Shown here in pieces: positions 845 to 8,927 of a stretch of 37,649 nucleotides of DNA. The translations under genes and the position numbers were made by a program. Position 1 is the stretch's first letter, and the number at the start of each line of letters is the position of its first letter. This DNA is from Candidatus Lambdaproteobacteria bacterium RIFOXYD2_FULL_56_26 (GTDB lineage: Bacteria; SAR324; XYD2-FULL-50-16), in NCBI GenBank assembly GCA_001783715.1, contig MFNF01000017.1, forward strand, positions 83,366 through 121,014, written 5' to 3'. The notes under the pieces are model-generated. The model was not told the DNA's origin. It saw only the letters and a program-made list of their open reading frames with translations, and did no database searches.

Positions 845-2101
845 ATGAAGTTAAAGGTGGATTTGGGTCAAGCCGTATTGGCTTTGACCGATGCATTGGA
901 TCTGGTGGGGGTGGACAGCTTCCAGCACGGAAAAAGGGTTGGCTTCATGGTCCACCAGGGGGCGAACCTGCGGCCCTGGGACTTGGGGGCAGAGCAGCTG
1001 TTCAACTTGGGCATGCTCCACGACCTAGGGGTTTCCAGCACCTTGACCCACCACTATCTGGTCCAGCAGTTGGCTTGGGAAGGGGCGGAGGAACATGCCC
1101 GGGTCGGTTTTGACCGGTTGCGCCGTTTTGCCCCTTTGGCCGAGCTGGCCCCCTATGTACTTTACCACCACACCCCCTGGGAGCGGTTCAAAGACCTAGA
1201 GGTAGCGCCCGAGGTGGCGATCCTGGCCAACTGGGTGTTTTTGTGTGACCGTGCCGACGTAATGGCCGCCGGGTTTTACCAAAAAAACGTGTTGGAACAG
1301 AAACCCAACATCTTAGAGAGGATCAAAACCCTTTCGGGCAGTTATTTTGCCCCGGAATTGGTGGCGATGTTTTGTGGTTTGGCCGAACATGATGCCTTCT
1401 GGCTTGCCCAGGAACCCAGGCATTTGAACCGGTTTCTGGAGGCCCAATCGAAGCTCCGGGAGCCTTTGGGTTTGGGGTTTGCCCAGGTGCTGCAACTGGC
1501 CCGGATCTTCGCCGAAATCGTGGATACCAAAAGCCGGTTTACCCATGAACATTCGGTTGGGGTCGCCCAGCTTTCCCGGTACCTGGGCCAAAATTTTGGT
1601 TTGGACGAAGAGACCTGCGACAAACTCGAAATCGCCGGGTTGCTGCACGACCTGGGCAAGCTCCAGGTGCCAGATGAGATTTTGGACAAACCCGGCCCCT
1701 TGGATGAGATCGAACGAGCCCGGATCAACCACCACAGCTTTGAAACCTTCCAAATCCTTTCGGCCATCACCGGTCTGGAGGACATCGCCCGTTGGGCTTC
1801 CCTGCACCACGAAAGCCCCGACGGGACCGGTTACCCCTTTGGGGAGCAGGGCACCCAATTACCCCTTGAAGCCAGAATCATTGCGGTTGCCGATGTGTTC
1901 CAGGCATTGGCCCAAAACCGGCCCTACCGCAAACCGCTGGCCCCGATGGCCATTGCCGGGATTTTGGCGGATTTTGCTCGGGCCCAAAAATTGGACCCGG
2001 AGTTGGCCCTTTGGTGCGCCGACCATGCAGAGGATTGCCAACAGGTGGCGCTTTGGAAGGGTCCCTCCGACCTTGCCGCCGAAACTGCGGCTCGTCTTTA
2101 A
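845..2101 (+). CDS. Double-HD protein with canonical C-terminal HD-GYP domain (cyclic-di-GMP phosphodiesterase)
   Basis: A 418-aa soluble protein. Residues about 15-190 form a first HD-type domain (H28, H59-D60, H84, Y107-H108-H109), diverged and without a GYP motif. Residues about 215-395 are a canonical HD-GYP domain: H236, H268-D269 followed by GKLQVP, H296-H297, H321-H322-E323, D326-G-T-G-Y-P331 and D350. HD-GYP enzymes hydrolyse cyclic-di-GMP to pGpG/GMP with a di- or tri-iron centre and so promote motility over biofilm formation. All expected metal ligands are present in the second domain, so activity is likely; the first domain may regulate or bind a ligand. ATG 845 is chosen because upstream in-frame sequence (from 764) is not family-like. 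The J-domain gene starts about 14 nt after the stop, so co-transcription is likely. Confidence 0.85.
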   Translation: MKLKVDLGQAVLALTDALDLVGVDSFQHGKRVGFMVHQGANLRPWDLGAEQLFNLGMLHDLGVSSTLTHHYLVQQLAWEGAEEHARVGFDRLRRFAPLAELAPYVLYHHTPWERFKDLEVAPEVAILANWVFLCDRADVMAAGFYQKNVLEQKPNILERIKTLSGSYFAPELVAMFCGLAEHDAFWLAQEPRHLNRFLEAQSKLREPLGLGFAQVLQLARIFAEIVDTKSRFTHEHSVGVAQLSRYLGQNFGLDEETCDKLEIAGLLHDLGKLQVPDEILDKPGPLDEIERARINHHSFETFQILSAITGLEDIARWASLHHESPDGTGYPFGEQGTQLPLEARIIAVADVFQALAQNRPYRKPLAPMAIAGILADFARAQKLDPELALWCADHAEDCQQVALWKGPSDLAAETAARL

Positions 2102-2115
2102 CCCCAAAGGAAGCC

Positions 2116-3237
2116 TTGGCCGCCGAGACCTTAAAGTTTTTTTTTGGAGTCACCCAGGCCCCCAAGCCCTGGGGCTGGTTTTGGGGCCTTTGGGACAACC
2201 TCTGGGTTCGAGACACTAGGCCGCCATTGCTCTGTGGCTTTGAGGGCCACAAAAAGTTGGCCTTGGCCCAGGTCAAGCGATTGGTCTGCGAGCCCTACCT
2301 GCGGGAACAGGCCTGGGCCCAAGGGATCGAGACCTTTGTGGCCAACCAGACCGGGGTGGACCGGTACGCCAAGTCCTACCTGGAAAACTCGCTTTGGCCT
2401 GCGACCGCCAATCCCTTTGAGAACACCCGGTACGCCTTCCTGCAAAACAAGGATGCCCCGGTCTGGGCGATTGCCCCTACGACCGGCGGTTGGTATTGGG
2501 CGGTTTGGCCCTCTTTGTTTCATTATTTTGCGACCGGGGAACCGGTGGCCCAAGGGGAGGAACTGAGCCAGCAGGAGGCCAGTTTAAAGGCCTTCAGCCA
2601 AGTGGGCAAAAAGCCGGGACAAGGCTTGCCCCCCGGATTTGGCCCCCGGTTTTTGGGCCGTAGGCTTTGTGCCCAACAGTGGGCGGACAGTGGCGCACCC
2701 CTCTTGAGCCCCAACGACTTCCTTTATGGCAACCGGTCCCCCAACTTCATCCAGGTCCAGCAGGAATGGACCGCCCACCAGATTGTCAAGGAATCGGAAC
2801 GATTTTTGTGGGTGTTGCAGCGGCCCTTTCCGTTCCTCAAAACCCCGGATTCAGACCCCACTTCAAAAATCGGGCAGGTGTACAAGGTTTCCCATTCGGA
2901 GCTCAAGGCCCAAGGGCAGGCGTTTTGTCGGGAGTATGAGGGTTATTTCCAAACCGCAGCCTTCCAGGGAAAACCCACCGCCCGGCCCCAAAAACCGGTT
3001 CCTCCGTTGGACCCGAAGCTCCAGGCGGCCCTCAAGCTATTGGCGTTGCCCCAGGAGTTTGACCAAGGGCAGCTGAAAAAACAGTACCACCAGTTGTTGT
3101 TTGTCCACCACCCAGACCATGGCGGGGAGGCGGCCAATTTTGTGGCCTTGAAAAAGGCGTTTGTGTTGGCCAAAAGCGCCTTGGAACAAAAGGAGGCCCG
3201 CCTGCCAAAAAAGACCCTAGGTACCGAGCCGGATTGA
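2116..3237 (+). CDS. Uncharacterised protein with a C-terminal J-domain (DnaJ-like HPD motif)
   Basis: About 373 aa. The C-terminal 60 residues look like a J-domain: a helix, then HHPDHGG (HPD at about 332-334), then FVALKKAF, matching helix II-HPD-helix III. The HPD motif stimulates DnaK ATPase, so this is probably a specialised J-protein delivering a client to DnaK. The first 300 residues are Trp-, Pro- and aromatic-rich, with no signal peptide, no membrane helix and no family I recognise. The start is uncertain. TTG at 2116 follows an AAGGA and sits just after the HD-GYP stop; an in-frame ATG at 2011 would overlap that gene by about 90 bp. The tight spacing suggests an operon with the HD-GYP gene. 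Confidence 0.6.
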   Translation: MAAETLKFFFGVTQAPKPWGWFWGLWDNLWVRDTRPPLLCGFEGHKKLALAQVKRLVCEPYLREQAWAQGIETFVANQTGVDRYAKSYLENSLWPATANPFENTRYAFLQNKDAPVWAIAPTTGGWYWAVWPSLFHYFATGEPVAQGEELSQQEASLKAFSQVGKKPGQGLPPGFGPRFLGRRLCAQQWADSGAPLLSPNDFLYGNRSPNFIQVQQEWTAHQIVKESERFLWVLQRPFPFLKTPDSDPTSKIGQVYKVSHSELKAQGQAFCREYEGYFQTAAFQGKPTARPQKPVPPLDPKLQAALKLLALPQEFDQGQLKKQYHQLLFVHHPDHGGEAANFVALKKAFVLAKSALEQKEARLPKKTLGTEPD

Positions 3238-3300
3238 CCTTTCGTCGAGGGTTGGATAGCTTGACCTTTCACCAGACCTAATATTCAGAGGGGGAGACCG

Positions 3301-3735
3301 TTGGCGAATCAGGAATGGAATAAAGCCTTGGAAACCGGATTGTTGTGGCAAGACCACCAACACCGGCGGTTCTTTGCGATCAGAGACCTGTTGCTGAAAA
3401 GCGCCGAAAGCGCAGATTCAAAACTGTTTGAGCGGACCTTGGTGTTGCTGGAACATTATGTGGCCGACCATTTCAGCACCGAAGAAGCCTACATGAACGA
3501 GACCCATTACCCGGAACTGGCCGACCACCTCAAGGAACACCAAACCTTCGCCAAGATGGTCCAACGGGCCAAACGGGAATATTTGGCCTACAAAAAGGCC
3601 CTGGACGAAGGAGACGACACCGCCCACAACCCTTGGATCGACTTGGGTCTGGACCTGGAAATCTGGTTTGTGGAGCACATCCGCGGGTCGGACCACCGGT
3701 TGGGGGAGTTTCTGCTCCAGCAAAACCGCCCGTAG
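3301..3735 (+). CDS. Single-domain bacteriohemerythrin (non-heme di-iron O2-binding protein)
   Basis: A 144-aa all-helical hemerythrin with the full set of di-iron ligands. H21 lies in DHQHRRFF, H57 and E61 in ADHFSTEE, H76 and H80 in HLKEH, and H126 and D131 in EHIRGSD. These bind O2 reversibly through a non-heme di-iron site; bacterial examples carry, store or sense oxygen. The start is TTG at 3301, supported by a strong purine-rich site (GAGGGGGAG) about 5 nt upstream and by the normal family length. There is no fused output domain. It converges (27 bp gap) with a block encoding a second di-iron family protein (ODP) and a kinase, suggesting an oxygen-related neighbourhood. Confidence 0.92.
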   Translation: MANQEWNKALETGLLWQDHQHRRFFAIRDLLLKSAESADSKLFERTLVLLEHYVADHFSTEEAYMNETHYPELADHLKEHQTFAKMVQRAKREYLAYKKALDEGDDTAHNPWIDLGLDLEIWFVEHIRGSDHRLGEFLLQQNRP

Positions 3736-3762
3736 TTGGACCCAAGTTTTGGGGTGGGTCGG

Positions 3763-4671
3763 TCAATAAACCTTGGGCAAGCTGAAGGCGAACTGACTGC
3801 CTTGCCCCGGTTTGGAAGTCACCCAAATCTTGCCGCTTTGGGACTCACAAAGCTCTTTGGCCAGGAACAACCCCAGGCCGGTGCCGTATTCTTTTGCCGT
3901 CCCTGTCGCAGATTCCACCAGCTGGTTTTTGAACAACCGATCCAAAACCTCGGGCGCAATCCCCACGCCGGTGTCGATCACCCAAAAGACCCACTCCCGG
4001 TTCCGCTCCTCCAGCTTGACCAGCACCTCTCCGTTGGCGGTGTATTTGATGCCGTTGCTGATCAGGTTGCGCAGGATAGTTTGGGTCATGTGCCGGTCCG
4101 CCTGGATCTCGGAACCGGCGGGCATTTCGCACTTGAGGGAAATCGATTTGTTTTTGGCATGGGACTCAAAGAGCATAAACAGCTCTTGGACCAATTTGTT
4201 GGCCTCAAAACGGACCGGCTGGGGTTTGATCTGGCCGCTCAGGCCCCAGATCCAGGTGAGCAGGTTGTCCACCAGCTCAACCCCGCTCAAGGCCACCGAG
4301 TGAACCATGCCGATGTGCTCTCCCAGGCTTTCCAGGTTGGGGGGCTGGAGATTTTTGCTCAACCCCTCGGCAATGCCGATCAGGTTGGTAAAGGGGGATC
4401 GCAGGTCGTGGGCCAGGATCGACAGCAACCGGTCTTTGGTGGCGTTGGCGACCTTGAGTTCCCGTTCCAGCCGGGTCTTTTGGTCCAATTCCCGTTGCAG
4501 GCTCTTTTTGCTGTTGTTGATCCCGTAGATAGTGGCGGTCAAAAGGTTGGCCTTGACCTGGCTCAGGTAGGCCTGACAGCGCATGTTCAGGGCTTTTTCG
4601 GCCAAGGAGCGGTTGATGTCCCGAACCTCGGAAACATGCCGCCCTCCGGTAGTGAGGATACTTTCTTTCAC
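3763..4671 (-). CDS. Soluble histidine kinase without its own sensor domain, coupled to the ODP gene
   Basis: A 302-aa kinase with no transmembrane segment. Residues 1-78 are a helical linker. HisKA follows with the phosphoacceptor H88 in AHDLRSPF, then HATPase_c with the N-box around N202/N206, G1 DTGVGIAP (233-240) and G2 GTGLGLFLA (263-271). There is no PAS, GAF or other recognised sensor. GTG 4671 overlaps the stop of the upstream ODP gene in a GTGA tetranucleotide, so the two are probably translationally coupled. I infer that the ODP protein supplies the sensing function in trans. No cognate response regulator is adjacent. The reading frame extends to 4704, but that would invade the ODP gene by 37 bp. 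Confidence 0.85.
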   Translation of the reverse strand: MKESILTTGGRHVSEVRDINRSLAEKALNMRCQAYLSQVKANLLTATIYGINNSKKSLQRELDQKTRLERELKVANATKDRLLSILAHDLRSPFTNLIGIAEGLSKNLQPPNLESLGEHIGMVHSVALSGVELVDNLLTWIWGLSGQIKPQPVRFEANKLVQELFMLFESHAKNKSISLKCEMPAGSEIQADRHMTQTILRNLISNGIKYTANGEVLVKLEERNREWVFWVIDTGVGIAPEVLDRLFKNQLVESATGTAKEYGTGLGLFLAKELCESQSGKIWVTSKPGQGSQFAFSLPKVY

Positions 4672-5423
4672 GGCAAGGTCCCTCCGGTCAGATCGATCCC
4701 GCAAGGCAGGTTCCGCAGGTGCTCGATCGCCCGGGGCACAAACGACCCTTCCAAGATGGAACCGTGTTGGGGCAAGATCCGCTGGATGTCAAACCGCTCC
4801 AGTTTTTGCAAGAAGTCCTTGAGGACTCGATTGGAGGGGATGATCAACTGGTGCCAACGGCTCATGGATTCAAAGGCGGCATCTTCGGAGGCGAACAGGG
4901 ACCAATGGTCCGAAAGGCCGCCGAAGATGTCGGAGCTGAACAGGCTTTTGGACTCGTGGTCGTAGGTGACAATCCCAAAGGGGGAATGCAAAAAAGGGGT
5001 GTGCAAAAACTCCAAGACCCTTCCACTTTTGAGCTCCAATTTGCCGCCATTTTTGTCCACCTCATAAAACGGGGACTTCACCCCATAATGTTGGACCAAC
5101 CGGGTCAGGCTGGAATGGTTGACCAGCTTGAGGTCGTCCCTGCCGATCAGGTCTTCGACCACGGCGATGTTGCCGCAAACGTCCGGGTCCTGGTGGCTCA
5201 AGACCACGTGGGTGATTTCTTCGGGGTTGATGACATCAATCACCTTGCGCATGACCACCGAAAAGTGGGGGATCGAGCCTGGGTCAAAGAGCAACACCTC
5301 TTCGTCGTCAATGATCAGGTAGGGGTTGCAGTGCAGGTCCGCCTCTTGGTCGTAAAATCCCACCCAATAGATGTCCCGGAGAACGGCAATGGGGTTTTCA
5401 TAATCAAGGGCTTTGACTCTCAC
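4668..5423 (-). CDS. ODP-type metallo-beta-lactamase-fold di-iron protein (putative O2/NO sensor)
   Basis: A 251-aa beta-lactamase-fold protein of the flavodiiron-like ODP (oxygen-binding di-iron protein) type. Visible candidate ligands are H77-x-D79-x-D81 in SHQDPDV, H146 in FLHSPFG, D165 in SSDIFGG and H220 in LPQHG. V82 replaces the second His of ordinary HxHxDH hydrolases. This pattern, with an N-terminal YWVGFYD, is typical of ODP proteins, some of which bind O2 at a di-iron site and signal to chemoreceptors or kinases. There is no flavodoxin or rubredoxin domain, so an NO/O2 reductase role is less likely. GTG 5423 is my preferred start. An in-frame ATG at 5570 would overlap the upstream gene by 80 bp and add a basic, non-family extension. 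The stop overlaps the kinase start (GTGA). Confidence 0.8.
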   Translation of the reverse strand: MRVKALDYENPIAVLRDIYWVGFYDQEADLHCNPYLIIDDEEVLLFDPGSIPHFSVVMRKVIDVINPEEITHVVLSHQDPDVCGNIAVVEDLIGRDDLKLVNHSSLTRLVQHYGVKSPFYEVDKNGGKLELKSGRVLEFLHTPFLHSPFGIVTYDHESKSLFSSDIFGGLSDHWSLFASEDAAFESMSRWHQLIIPSNRVLKDFLQKLERFDIQRILPQHGSILEGSFVPRAIEHLRNLPCGIDLTGGTLP

Positions 5424-5490
5424 GTTTGAGCCTGGGAAAAGGTGGATTTTGGGCTGGATGGGCCAAGGATAATGGTTTGGTCTTAAAAGA

Positions 5491-5865
5491 TCAATTTTTT
5501 TCTCTTTTTTGGGATTCCTCTGCCAACGTCCAGACCCCGGTTTGGAGTAGGGGAAGCGCTTGTGCCTCATTGCGCAGGTACACCCAAGCGGAAAACCAGC
5601 CCAAAGGTTCGGTCCAAACCGGTCTCAACACTCTTTGGTAGTAGTGGGGAGCTTCCTCCAGTTGATCGAGCCGTTCCAACTGCTCCAATGAAACAAAATA
5701 AACCTCCCCCTCCAGGGAACCGGACCCCAAACAGGCGTAAGGGTATCCGGGTCCAAGGTGCAGGCTCAAGCCCTCCATTTTGGCCGCCCAGCCTTGGGCC
5801 GGGGCCAGATAGTGGTGATTTTTGTGGCCCTTTTTGAGGGTGCCATAAACAAAGACTGCTTCCAC
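5491..5865 (-). CDS. Gamma-glutamylcyclotransferase-like (AIG2/GGCT fold) protein
   Basis: A 124-aa protein starting VEAVFVYGTLKKG, the substrate-binding YGTL loop of the GGCT/AIG2 family. The likely catalytic acid is E70 in LDQLEEAP, followed by YYQR. Members cyclise gamma-glutamyl amines to 5-oxoproline, in glutathione turnover or gamma-glutamylamine metabolism; the substrate cannot be read from sequence. GTG 5865 is chosen because the longer open frame (to 6027) lies inside the upstream kinase and the family normally begins 5-8 residues before YGTL. It sits 17 bp after the hybrid kinase stop and 67 bp before the ODP start, so a four-gene transcript is plausible. A link to gshB elsewhere in the window is thematic only. 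Confidence 0.8.
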   Translation of the reverse strand: MEAVFVYGTLKKGHKNHHYLAPAQGWAAKMEGLSLHLGPGYPYACLGSGSLEGEVYFVSLEQLERLDQLEEAPHYYQRVLRPVWTEPLGWFSAWVYLRNEAQALPLLQTGVWTLAEESQKREKN

Positions 5866-5882
5866 AAGGCCAAAGGGAAGGG

Positions 5883-8800
5883 TTAAACCATCACCTGCAA
5901 TTCTTCCAGGGTACGTTGCAGCTCCCCCTTGAGTTGGACGCTTTGGGGGCAGGAGGAGAGGACAAAGTGGGCGGTGCGGATCACGTCCATGTACCGGGGG
6001 TTTTGGGGCAAGGTCTTGAGGCTGCAATACTTGTCCAAAATTCGGGTCCGCAGCCGCCCCTCGTCCTGGTAGATCCGCCAGATTCCGCTTTTCTCGGCCA
6101 AGTCGAATTTGGTTTCTCCACTGCTGTTTTCCCAGCAGTCCAAGGCCAATTGCATGACCTTAACGATCTGTTCGCGAAAATCCGCTTCCGAACGGACCGG
6201 TTTTTTCTCTTGGGTCTGGAGGCTTAAAACCCAATCGCCGCTTTCGAGTTTGGCCATGCTGACCAAGGAACCGTCCTTGCGGGAAGATACGCCGGGCAAG
6301 GGGTCCAGGCGGGTTGATTTTTTTGCCGCTTCCTTGAGCTGTTCGGCCCCGTCAAAGAGTTTGTCCAAGGAAGGCAGTTGGTCCGGCCCCAGGCCAAAAT
6401 GGATACGTGCCGATTGGTTGGCGTACCGGGGGAGCAGTTGGACATCCAGCAGCAATACCGGTCCCGGTGTTTTGTCCAAAATGCTGATCAGGCTTTCCCT
6501 AGTCCTGGAGAGTTCCCTTTGGGTTTGGTCGAGCAGGGTGATCCGTTCGGTCAAACTGGCGTTTTCCTTGATTTTAAGGTGCAGCTCCAGCCGGGCCAGC
6601 AGTTCCTTGCCCAAGATCGGCTTGGTAATGTAGTCGTTGGCCCCCGCCGCAAAGGCTTCCTCCAGCCCCCCGGCGTGGGATTTGGCGGTGAGGATCAAGA
6701 TCGGCAGCACCTCGGGAGAGAAAAGCCGCCGCATCTCCTTGCAGACCTCATAACCGTTGATGTTGGGCATCATCAGGTCGAGCAGGACCAGATCGGGGGT
6801 CAGGTCTTCCAAAATCTCCAGTCCCTCAACGCCGCCGGGGGCGGAGATCACCTGATAGCCTTGGTGTCCCAGGATGTCTTCGAGCAGGGCCACGTTGCCC
6901 GGTTCATCATCGATGACCAGAATTTTGGTCCCCAATTGCTGGACCAGTTCGACCTGATGCGGCTGGGTCTCTTTTTTGGGCGGAGGTTCGGAGTAGCTGC
7001 GCAGGCTCTTGGCGGCAGGCAGACAAAAGGAAAAAGAGGTCCCTTGACCCGGCTGGCTCATCATCTCCAAACGGCCACCTTGCAATTCGATCAGTTGCAA
7101 GGTGATCGAAAGCCCCAGTCCACTGCCGCCCATCTCGTCGATCACCTCGGGATGCTCCCGTACAAAAGGCTCGAACAGCCGTCCCCATTGTTTGATGGCG
7201 ATGCCGATACCGGTGTCTTTGACTTCGATGCTGATGCTGTCCCCGAACTCCCGGGCCATGAGGGTCACTTCCCCCTGGTGGGTGAACTTGACCGCATTGC
7301 CCAGCAGGTTAAAAAGAATCTGTTGCAGCCGGTTTTCATCGGCCATTACAAAGGGAAGCCCCTTTTCAAACTCGAAGTTCAAGGACAGGTGCTTGGAATG
7401 GGCCAAAGGCTCCACCAGACTGATCACCATTTGGCCCAGCTGGGAGAGGTCCACCGGCTTGATCTCCAAGGTCAACTTTTTGTTTTTCAGCGCTGCAAAG
7501 TCCAAGATGTCGTGGATCAAGTGGGTCAGCCGCCGCCCCATGGCCAGGATCAGGCCCAGCTGGCTGGTTTCCTTGGGGCTGAGCCGAGAGGAGGCACTTT
7601 CCTGCAACCGTTCGGTCAGACCCAAGATTCCGAACAAAGGGGTGTTCAGTTCGTGGGTGGTGTTGGCCAGGAACTCGTCCTTGAGTTGGTCCAGTTGGGT
7701 CAGCTCTCGGTTTTTTTCGCCGATCTTCAGCGCATGTTGCCGTTCCTGTTCCAACAAGGCCTGATGGGCGGCATTCCGCTCCCTGGCCAGCAGCCTGATC
7801 CGGTCGCCGACCGCAAAAATGAGCAGCAACATCTCGGCCACCGTCCCCAGATGCATGAACCAGTCGAGCCCCACGGGACTCTTGACGAACCCCAGGTACT
7901 GGAAAGCCAACAGGATGCCGCAAAGCTCCATCAACAAAAAGGCCACAATAAAATAAACCGAGGCACTCACCTTTTTGCGCCAAGCGAAAATAGAGATGAC
8001 CAAGGTGCAAGAAAGACTGGCAATGACCAAAAGGCTCAAGATTTGGGAGGCCAGCGGGAAGGGAGCGAGGTAGAGCAGGCCCAGGTTGAGCCCCAAAAGG
8101 GCGCTGAGCCCTTGGATGATCTTGGAGCCCTGGGGCAGGTTGGTTTTGATGTCCAGAAACCGGTGGGTAAACCGCAAGGTTCCGAGCATCATCAAAACCA
8201 CCGACCCGGCGTACAGACGGTTTAGGGCCGGTGGCCCCAAATTGGGGGCCAGGAAGTTACGGAATAGACCATCGTAGATACAAAAAAGCCAAATTTCGGT
8301 GGCAACCAGCAGGAAATATTCAAAAAAGCTCCGCTCCCTCAAAATGAAAAAACTCACCAAAGAGGCGAGAGCCATGATCCCTAAAAACCCGTTGAAAAAA
8401 CCCTCACCCAGGTAGCTGGAACTTTGGGCCCGGCTGAACGCTTGGGAATCGTGAAAGTTCAGGTTAAAGGCCACCGAGCCTTCGTCTTTGACCAACAGTA
8501 AAAACTCTTTGGTTTCACCGGCCAAGAAGGGGATCACAAAAATCGGGTGGAGGTAAAACTCTTGGAGCCGACCGACCGGGACTTGTTCGCCGGACTGTTG
8601 TACCGAGTCGTTGGCGAGGCTGTACAGGTCCACCTGGTCGATCAGGGAGCTGGTCAATTCCAGGACCTGGGTGGTCGGGGCCGCAGAGTGGTTGGTGACT
8701 TTGAGGTGGATCCACTCGTTCCCCTGGCCAAAACCGTACAGGAATCGATTCCCCCTTTGGGGGACAAAGTCCGTTGTAGAAAGCTTGTTTTTGACTTCCA

Positions 8801-8927
8801 GGTAAGAGAGGTTTCCCGCCCCGTTGGAAAGGGAGGAGCTTTCCCAAACCACTTCGCCTTGGGCGCAAGCGCAAGCCGGGGCCAAACCCAAGACAGCCCA
8901 AAACAGGGCCAAAACAATTTGTTTCAT
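5883..8927 (-). CDS. 7TMR-DISM hybrid histidine kinase with internal receiver and extra C-terminal domain
   Basis: 1014 aa. Signal peptide 1-22 (ends ACACAQ), a DISMED2-type periplasmic ligand domain about 25-170, and seven hydrophobic helices about 178-378 (7TMR-DISM). A coiled linker leads to HisKA with H425 in THELNTP. HATPase_c has its N-box at 540-548, DTGIGI 571-576 and GGSGLGLS 600-607. A receiver follows at about 668-785 (acidic pair D673/D674, phosphoacceptor D717, K769). After a coiled coil and a PAS-like part (about 805-905) comes a C-terminal block (about 915-1005) rich in W, Y and R, including W950 and NPRYMDVIRTAHFVL. That block resembles a conserved tail I recall from other 7TMR hybrid kinases; its function is unknown to me. 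DISMED2 folds resemble carbohydrate-binding modules. ATG 8927 has AGGGAA about 9 nt upstream. It heads the GGCT-ODP-kinase series. Confidence 0.9.
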   Translation of the reverse strand: MKQIVLALFWAVLGLAPACACAQGEVVWESSSLSNGAGNLSYLEVKNKLSTTDFVPQRGNRFLYGFGQGNEWIHLKVTNHSAAPTTQVLELTSSLIDQVDLYSLANDSVQQSGEQVPVGRLQEFYLHPIFVIPFLAGETKEFLLLVKDEGSVAFNLNFHDSQAFSRAQSSSYLGEGFFNGFLGIMALASLVSFFILRERSFFEYFLLVATEIWLFCIYDGLFRNFLAPNLGPPALNRLYAGSVVLMMLGTLRFTHRFLDIKTNLPQGSKIIQGLSALLGLNLGLLYLAPFPLASQILSLLVIASLSCTLVISIFAWRKKVSASVYFIVAFLLMELCGILLAFQYLGFVKSPVGLDWFMHLGTVAEMLLLIFAVGDRIRLLARERNAAHQALLEQERQHALKIGEKNRELTQLDQLKDEFLANTTHELNTPLFGILGLTERLQESASSRLSPKETSQLGLILAMGRRLTHLIHDILDFAALKNKKLTLEIKPVDLSQLGQMVISLVEPLAHSKHLSLNFEFEKGLPFVMADENRLQQILFNLLGNAVKFTHQGEVTLMAREFGDSISIEVKDTGIGIAIKQWGRLFEPFVREHPEVIDEMGGSGLGLSITLQLIELQGGRLEMMSQPGQGTSFSFCLPAAKSLRSYSEPPPKKETQPHQVELVQQLGTKILVIDDEPGNVALLEDILGHQGYQVISAPGGVEGLEILEDLTPDLVLLDLMMPNINGYEVCKEMRRLFSPEVLPILILTAKSHAGGLEEAFAAGANDYITKPILGKELLARLELHLKIKENASLTERITLLDQTQRELSRTRESLISILDKTPGPVLLLDVQLLPRYANQSARIHFGLGPDQLPSLDKLFDGAEQLKEAAKKSTRLDPLPGVSSRKDGSLVSMAKLESGDWVLSLQTQEKKPVRSEADFREQIVKVMQLALDCWENSSGETKFDLAEKSGIWRIYQDEGRLRTRILDKYCSLKTLPQNPRYMDVIRTAHFVLSSCPQSVQLKGELQRTLEELQVMV

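Follow-up and report, generated by a model that had tools for sequence, protein, structure and literature searches.

The closest described relatives of the locus analysed here are the oxygen-binding di-iron proteins (ODPs) of Treponema denticola (TDE2498) and Thermotoga maritima (PDB 6qnm, 6r9n, 6qrq, 6qwo), which are sensors for soluble MCPs. In T. denticola, the target of ODP is a soluble receptor that has no sensor of its own (PMC7666581, PMC6978683). According to the summary of Muok 2019 in PMC7319448, ODPs fall into three groups, which are found in MCP operons, in other signalling operons, and as fusions with signalling domains. The metallo-beta-lactamase (MBL)-type di-iron domain of ODP is also common to flavodiiron proteins such as FprA and NorV. 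Stand-alone gas sensors beside sensor-less kinases are known from the NosP/NahK and H-NOX/kinase pairs; these contain haem, whereas ODP is a di-iron protein, and they have no homology to ODP.

The locus was found in a stretch of 37,649 nucleotides from Candidatus Lambdaproteobacteria bacterium RIFOXYD2_FULL_56_26 (contig MFNF01000017.1), which is named the window in the following. Like the proteins of T. denticola and T. maritima, with which it has Pfam family, fold, and ligands in common, the ODP of the window stands alone, and its coupled partner is a cytoplasmic signalling protein that lacks a sensor. However, the identity is only 26-31%, the partner is a HisKA kinase and not an MCP, and the protein belongs to a different branch of the ODP tree. 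The general arrangement, in which ODP has been recruited to diverse outputs, is already known as a kind from the groups summarized in PMC7319448. The view of a first-pass annotation of this DNA, that no description of the arrangement exists, was therefore too strong. An adaptor segment is not mentioned in the summary in PMC7319448, nor are kinase pairs described there in detail. New are the adaptor, its occurrence strictly together with ODP, and the exchange of outputs behind it, none of which was found in the literature examined. The features of the locus are compiled in Table 1.

Table 1. Features of the window at and around the ODP-kinase locus.
Feature	Position	Strand	Remarks
HD-GYP phosphodiesterase-like protein	845..2101	+	PF13487 E=8e-36; upstream of hemerythrin, same strand
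Hemerythrin, 144 aa	3301..3735	+	PF01814 E=7.6e-11; convergent with kinase
Soluble HisKA/HATPase_c histidine kinase	3763..4671	-	302 aa from GTG; without PAS/GAF/HAMP
Adaptor A, conserved helical segment, kinase residues 1-78	4438..4671	-	alignments, genome searches, shuffle test
Start/stop overlap GTGA	4668..4671	-	ODP stop and kinase start; translational coupling
ODP (oxygen-binding di-iron protein family)	4668..5423	-	251 aa, GTG start; putative sensor subunit
Gamma-glutamylcyclotransferase-like (GGACT) ORF	5491..6027	-	PF06094 E=5.9e-21; between hybrid kinase and ODP
7TMR-DISM hybrid histidine kinase/response regulator	5883..8927	-	upstream of ODP

The ORF at 4668-5570(-) matched PF19583 (ODP) with E=3.3e-61 and 207 bits (curated cut-off 27.2) and was also matched by PF00753. 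Since the homologues begin about 48 residues into this 300-aa ORF, the GTG at 5423 was taken as the start, in agreement with the earlier assignment; the longer version is unlikely for the same reason and because its additional residues would be encoded within the GGACT gene region. The closest sequences of solved structure were those of T. maritima (E=4e-32) and T. denticola (E=2e-22), followed by flavodiiron proteins. The ligands H77-x-D79-x-D81, H146, D165, and H220 are invariant across six homologues, and the set HxDxD, H, D, H agrees with that of 6qrq and 6qnm, the best solved relatives. Thus, the di-iron ligands listed in the first-pass annotation are all present. An AF2 model built from the six homologues reached a pLDDT of 86.7. 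With this model as a Foldseek query, structural matches 1-9 were ODP chains, and the TM value to T. maritima ODP was about 0.8. Pfam detected no flavodoxin or any other domain after ODP: the protein stops at residue 251, where the kinase follows, which fits the earlier statement that an electron-transfer domain is missing. The protein is accordingly predicted by the model to be an MBL fold devoid of a flavodoxin domain, and it further differs from FprA and NorV in its HxDxD motif, which replaces HxExD, and in its separate branch.

The kinase matched PF00512 (HisKA, E=2e-6) and PF02518 (HATPase_c, E=5e-23) and nothing else in Pfam. Its phospho-acceptor H88, located in an LAHDLRSPF motif, is invariant, and the GTG start is supported by the alignment of residue 1 with the start codon of the homologues. 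The GTGA shared by the ODP stop and the kinase start is present as described. The kinase had been regarded as having no sensor domain; this is correct, but its start is not empty, as the first ~78 residues form a conserved segment. A scan of positions 3200-6000 yielded no sigma-70-like promoter site, and terminator-like matches were near chance level. The 7TMR-DISM hybrid kinase has a receiver domain of its own and a counterpart of 45% identity at the same position in genome G003; it is a possible operon member with ODP. The GGACT ORF is missing from the corresponding place in G003.

G003 belongs to another genus of the same family and keeps the gene order of upstream hybrid kinase, ODP, kinase, hemerythrin, and HD-GYP. 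Its ODP is 76% identical to that of the window, and its kinase, a full-length homologue, is 46-47% identical. In G001, which represents a third genus, the ODP (55% identity) is followed by a diguanylate cyclase in place of the kinase, and this cyclase has homology to the N-terminus of the kinase in the window over its first ~90 residues. In G006, a single protein combines ODP with GGDEF and receiver domains. The alignment revealed the same N-terminal segment, named adaptor A, in the kinase of G003, the cyclase of G001, an HK-REC protein of G355, and an HK of G382, the latter two being genomes from the gammaproteobacterial-class sample. At the junction of ODP and kinase, a 4-bp ATGA overlap is found at the same place in G003 and G355, and a 3-bp gap in G382. 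The inspection of gene neighbourhoods suggested in the first-pass annotation has therefore confirmed the pair and its overlap.

Adaptor A has the core NR.L.EKAL.MRC.AYLSQVK..LL..TI..INHSKK with the invariant residues N20, L23, E25, L28, C32, Y35, V39, K40, L43, L44, T47, and S54. Pairwise scores were 15-34 standard deviations over those of shuffled sequences. About 730 genomes were searched, namely the phylum of the window, a class sample of 369 genomes, and 300 and 13 genomes from the orders to which G382 and G355, respectively, belong. Adaptor A was detected in five genomes only, once per genome and each time directly after ODP; as the profile was built from the same five sequences, this exclusivity means that there are no further close copies, and distant ones may be missed. 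The segment heads kinases in four of these genomes and a diguanylate cyclase (GGDEF) in the fifth; the combination of ODP with a sensor-less kinase carrying adaptor A is thus rare. A known domain was considered as well and rejected: no Pfam family covers the segment of the window, and the PDB matches were generic coiled coils. In a model of the kinase, one helix extends from residue 5 to about residue 106 and into HisKA, which is only suggestive given the low confidence of this model (pLDDT 69).

For a broader survey, a profile built from six ODPs was applied with a threshold of E<=1e-45 to the phylum of the window (52 genomes) and to the classes of a gammaproteobacterial MAG (369) and of a third MAG (48). 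This resulted in 32 ODP domains (4, 11, and 17, respectively), and in 32/32 a signalling output is fused to ODP or follows it directly. Half of them (16) are intact fusions to GGDEF, in some cases together with PAS or REC, to a SpoIIE phosphatase with TPR, or to a nucleotide cyclase, where the SpoIIE output of three fusions (G439, G443, G444) was deduced from equal length. Another two are fused to SpoIIE, but their frame is broken. In the remaining 14 cases, the gene directly next encodes a kinase, GGDEF protein, or cyclase on its own, at distances of roughly -61 to +8 bp according to the gene calls; large overlaps hinge on the choice of the start, which is ambiguous in G059. A named survey of genome contigs gave two loci only, and a further phylum gave none. 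Fusobacteria bacterium ZRK30 has ODPs of 36-37% identity on three plasmids (CP102406, CP102407, CP102408). On the two plasmids examined, a GGDEF gene overlaps the ODP gene by 4 bp, and the GGDEF frame is split in CP102407.

Several of these loci deserve mention in their own right. The two examined plasmids of ZRK30 carry a plasmid-borne copy of an ODP-GGDEF sensor pair outside the three survey groups. ODPs fused to a SpoIIE-type PP2C phosphatase and TPR (L101, L102, L104, L105, L109) form a large family in the class of 48 genomes, and class III adenylate/guanylate cyclases adjoin ODP or are fused to it at L103, L025, L110, and L111. The genome of the window contains a second ODP locus (G000:C11:11258-13430; L032:8258-10440) with two tandem ODPs, to which L033 and L034 also belong as loci of this type. 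The ODPs are preceded by a helical protein of ~208 residues with an MCP-tip-like motif (SLEFIAINAGIASKQA), which is conserved in G003 and G005 and looks like a reduced MCP-type partner of ODP. Weak MCP partners, with PF00015 below the cut-off, stand beside ODP elsewhere in the phylum (L035, L040).

The survey bears on the role of the ODP itself. The protein could be an enzyme, a scavenger of O2 or NO or a hydrolase, that is co-transcribed with the kinase for regulation while the kinase senses something else. Fold and ligands are indeed common to flavodiiron O2/NO reductases and MBL hydrolases. However, no flavodoxin or rubredoxin is attached as electron donor, no other input domain is present in the kinase, and the same ODP clade includes fusions with GGDEF, cyclase, and SpoIIE outputs, as is typical of sensory inputs. 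An enzymatic role is therefore improbable. Judged from these sequences, the ODP of the window is very probably a detachable sensor subunit. This role had been proposed in the first-pass annotation; the conserved 4-bp overlap, the dedicated adaptor, and the fusions to GGDEF, cyclase, and SpoIIE speak for it.

A maximum-likelihood tree was calculated for 43 ODP-type domains. The five ODPs accompanied by adaptor A form one clade (99/96), even though a different class is the source of two of them, and the output switches between HK and GGDEF inside this clade. The partners in a second clade (100/100; L025, L103, L107, L108) are kinases or cyclases; three of them have another N-terminal segment in common (shuffle z 10-18), which is missing in the partner at L103. 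A third set of ODPs, near the MCP-type ODPs, is accompanied by GGDEF proteins and one kinase, and these partners have a weaker coiled-coil start in common (z 4-10). A comparison of this tree with the N-termini of the partners indicates that the type of adaptor tracks the ODP lineage and that the enzyme changes. A single universal adaptor was rejected, as the adaptor A profile gave no significant match to the partners in other ODP branches. According to the shuffle tests there are three adaptor families in place of one, of which group C is weaker. We lean slightly towards the view that ODP serves generally as a di-iron sensor subunit that can be plugged in: each lineage would recognise a short helical adaptor of its own and remain paired with it while the enzyme behind it (kinase, diguanylate cyclase, or nucleotide cyclase) is swapped, or fusion of ODP to the enzyme would make the adaptor dispensable.

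For the window, the link between ODP and kinase is well supported, and we consider it likely that the two form a two-protein sensor kinase in which the di-iron ODP is docked on the adaptor of the kinase. ODP would bind two irons in its MBL fold and would report the status of O2 and/or Fe(II) through its conformation or through oligomer contacts. It would dock on the N-terminal helical adaptor (residues 1-78), and since this would run into the HisKA dimerisation helices, docking could set autophosphorylation. We infer that ODP and kinase touch each other physically and that they do so at the adaptor. O2/Fe(II) as the signal is transferred from the ODP of T. denticola and would hold by analogy. 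A variant compatible with the two-protein sensor kinase is that the pair is real but responds mainly to NO, Fe(II), or the redox state, and not to O2. NO is reduced by the flavodiiron relatives, and the T. denticola ODP reportedly responds to iron as well as oxygen (a finding attributed to Muok 2019, which is cited in PMC7666581). On the other hand, the ligand set of the window ODP is identical to that of the structurally characterised O2-binding ODPs. We regard this variant as possible, but less likely than not.

The hemerythrin next to the kinase was initially seen as a partner that buffers or delivers O2. It matches its family, and the pattern H, HxxxE, HxxxH, HxxxxD with all seven ligands, as noted earlier, is found in the proteins of the window and G003 (55%) alike; the distance from the kinase stop to the hemerythrin end is indeed 27 bp. 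A module of three parts, in which the hemerythrin supplies or buffers O2 for ODP and ODP controls the kinase, could be proposed from the fact that the hemerythrin adjoins the kinase in the window as well as in G003. However, the gene is on the opposite strand and forms part of a larger block of synteny, to which the HD-GYP and hybrid-kinase genes also belong, and the genomes of the window and of G003 encode seven and sixteen hemerythrins, respectively. Moreover, when a hemerythrin profile was applied to all ODP loci examined, none was detected near ODP outside the window and the syntenic locus of G003. The count of hemerythrins at ODP loci, recommended in the first-pass annotation, thus speaks against its own proposal: the module of three parts is very unlikely, and the hemerythrin was rejected as a general part of an ODP module.

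The hemerythrin is probably a neighbour outside the ODP-kinase unit. Its likelier partner is the HD-GYP protein, because hemerythrin-HD-GYP fusions exist: Ferrovum Bhr-HD-GYP, like VcBhr-DGC, connects a di-iron O2/redox input to a c-di-GMP output (PMC8846402). In the window, the hemerythrin and HD-GYP genes share a strand, but in contrast to these fusions they are separate, and ODP has an unrelated di-iron fold. The HD-GYP orthologue of G003 is 61% identical and begins at the Met of 845, and the hemerythrin gene of G003 lies 100 bp downstream of it on the same strand. Two further observations concern this region. The HD-GYP protein encoded at positions 764-2101 of the window has an extra N-terminal HD-like half (HDLG...YHH), which results in an HD-[HD-GYP] architecture conserved at 61% in G003. 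Just left of the window (L043:12931-13353), another hemerythrin stands beside a hybrid kinase and is syntenic in G003, too.

A 2022 census of the sensory inputs of c-di-GMP signalling contains no occurrence of "ODP" or "lactamase"; ODP-GGDEF fusions and pairs are present in several of the groups searched here. If the proposed role is true, ODP would be a widespread di-iron sensor of O2/iron for two-component, c-di-GMP, and cyclic-nucleotide signalling, and not mainly for chemotaxis. The natural swap of the output behind one adaptor would then provide a small docking unit and a design from which a gas-sensing kinase with a detachable sensor could readily be made.
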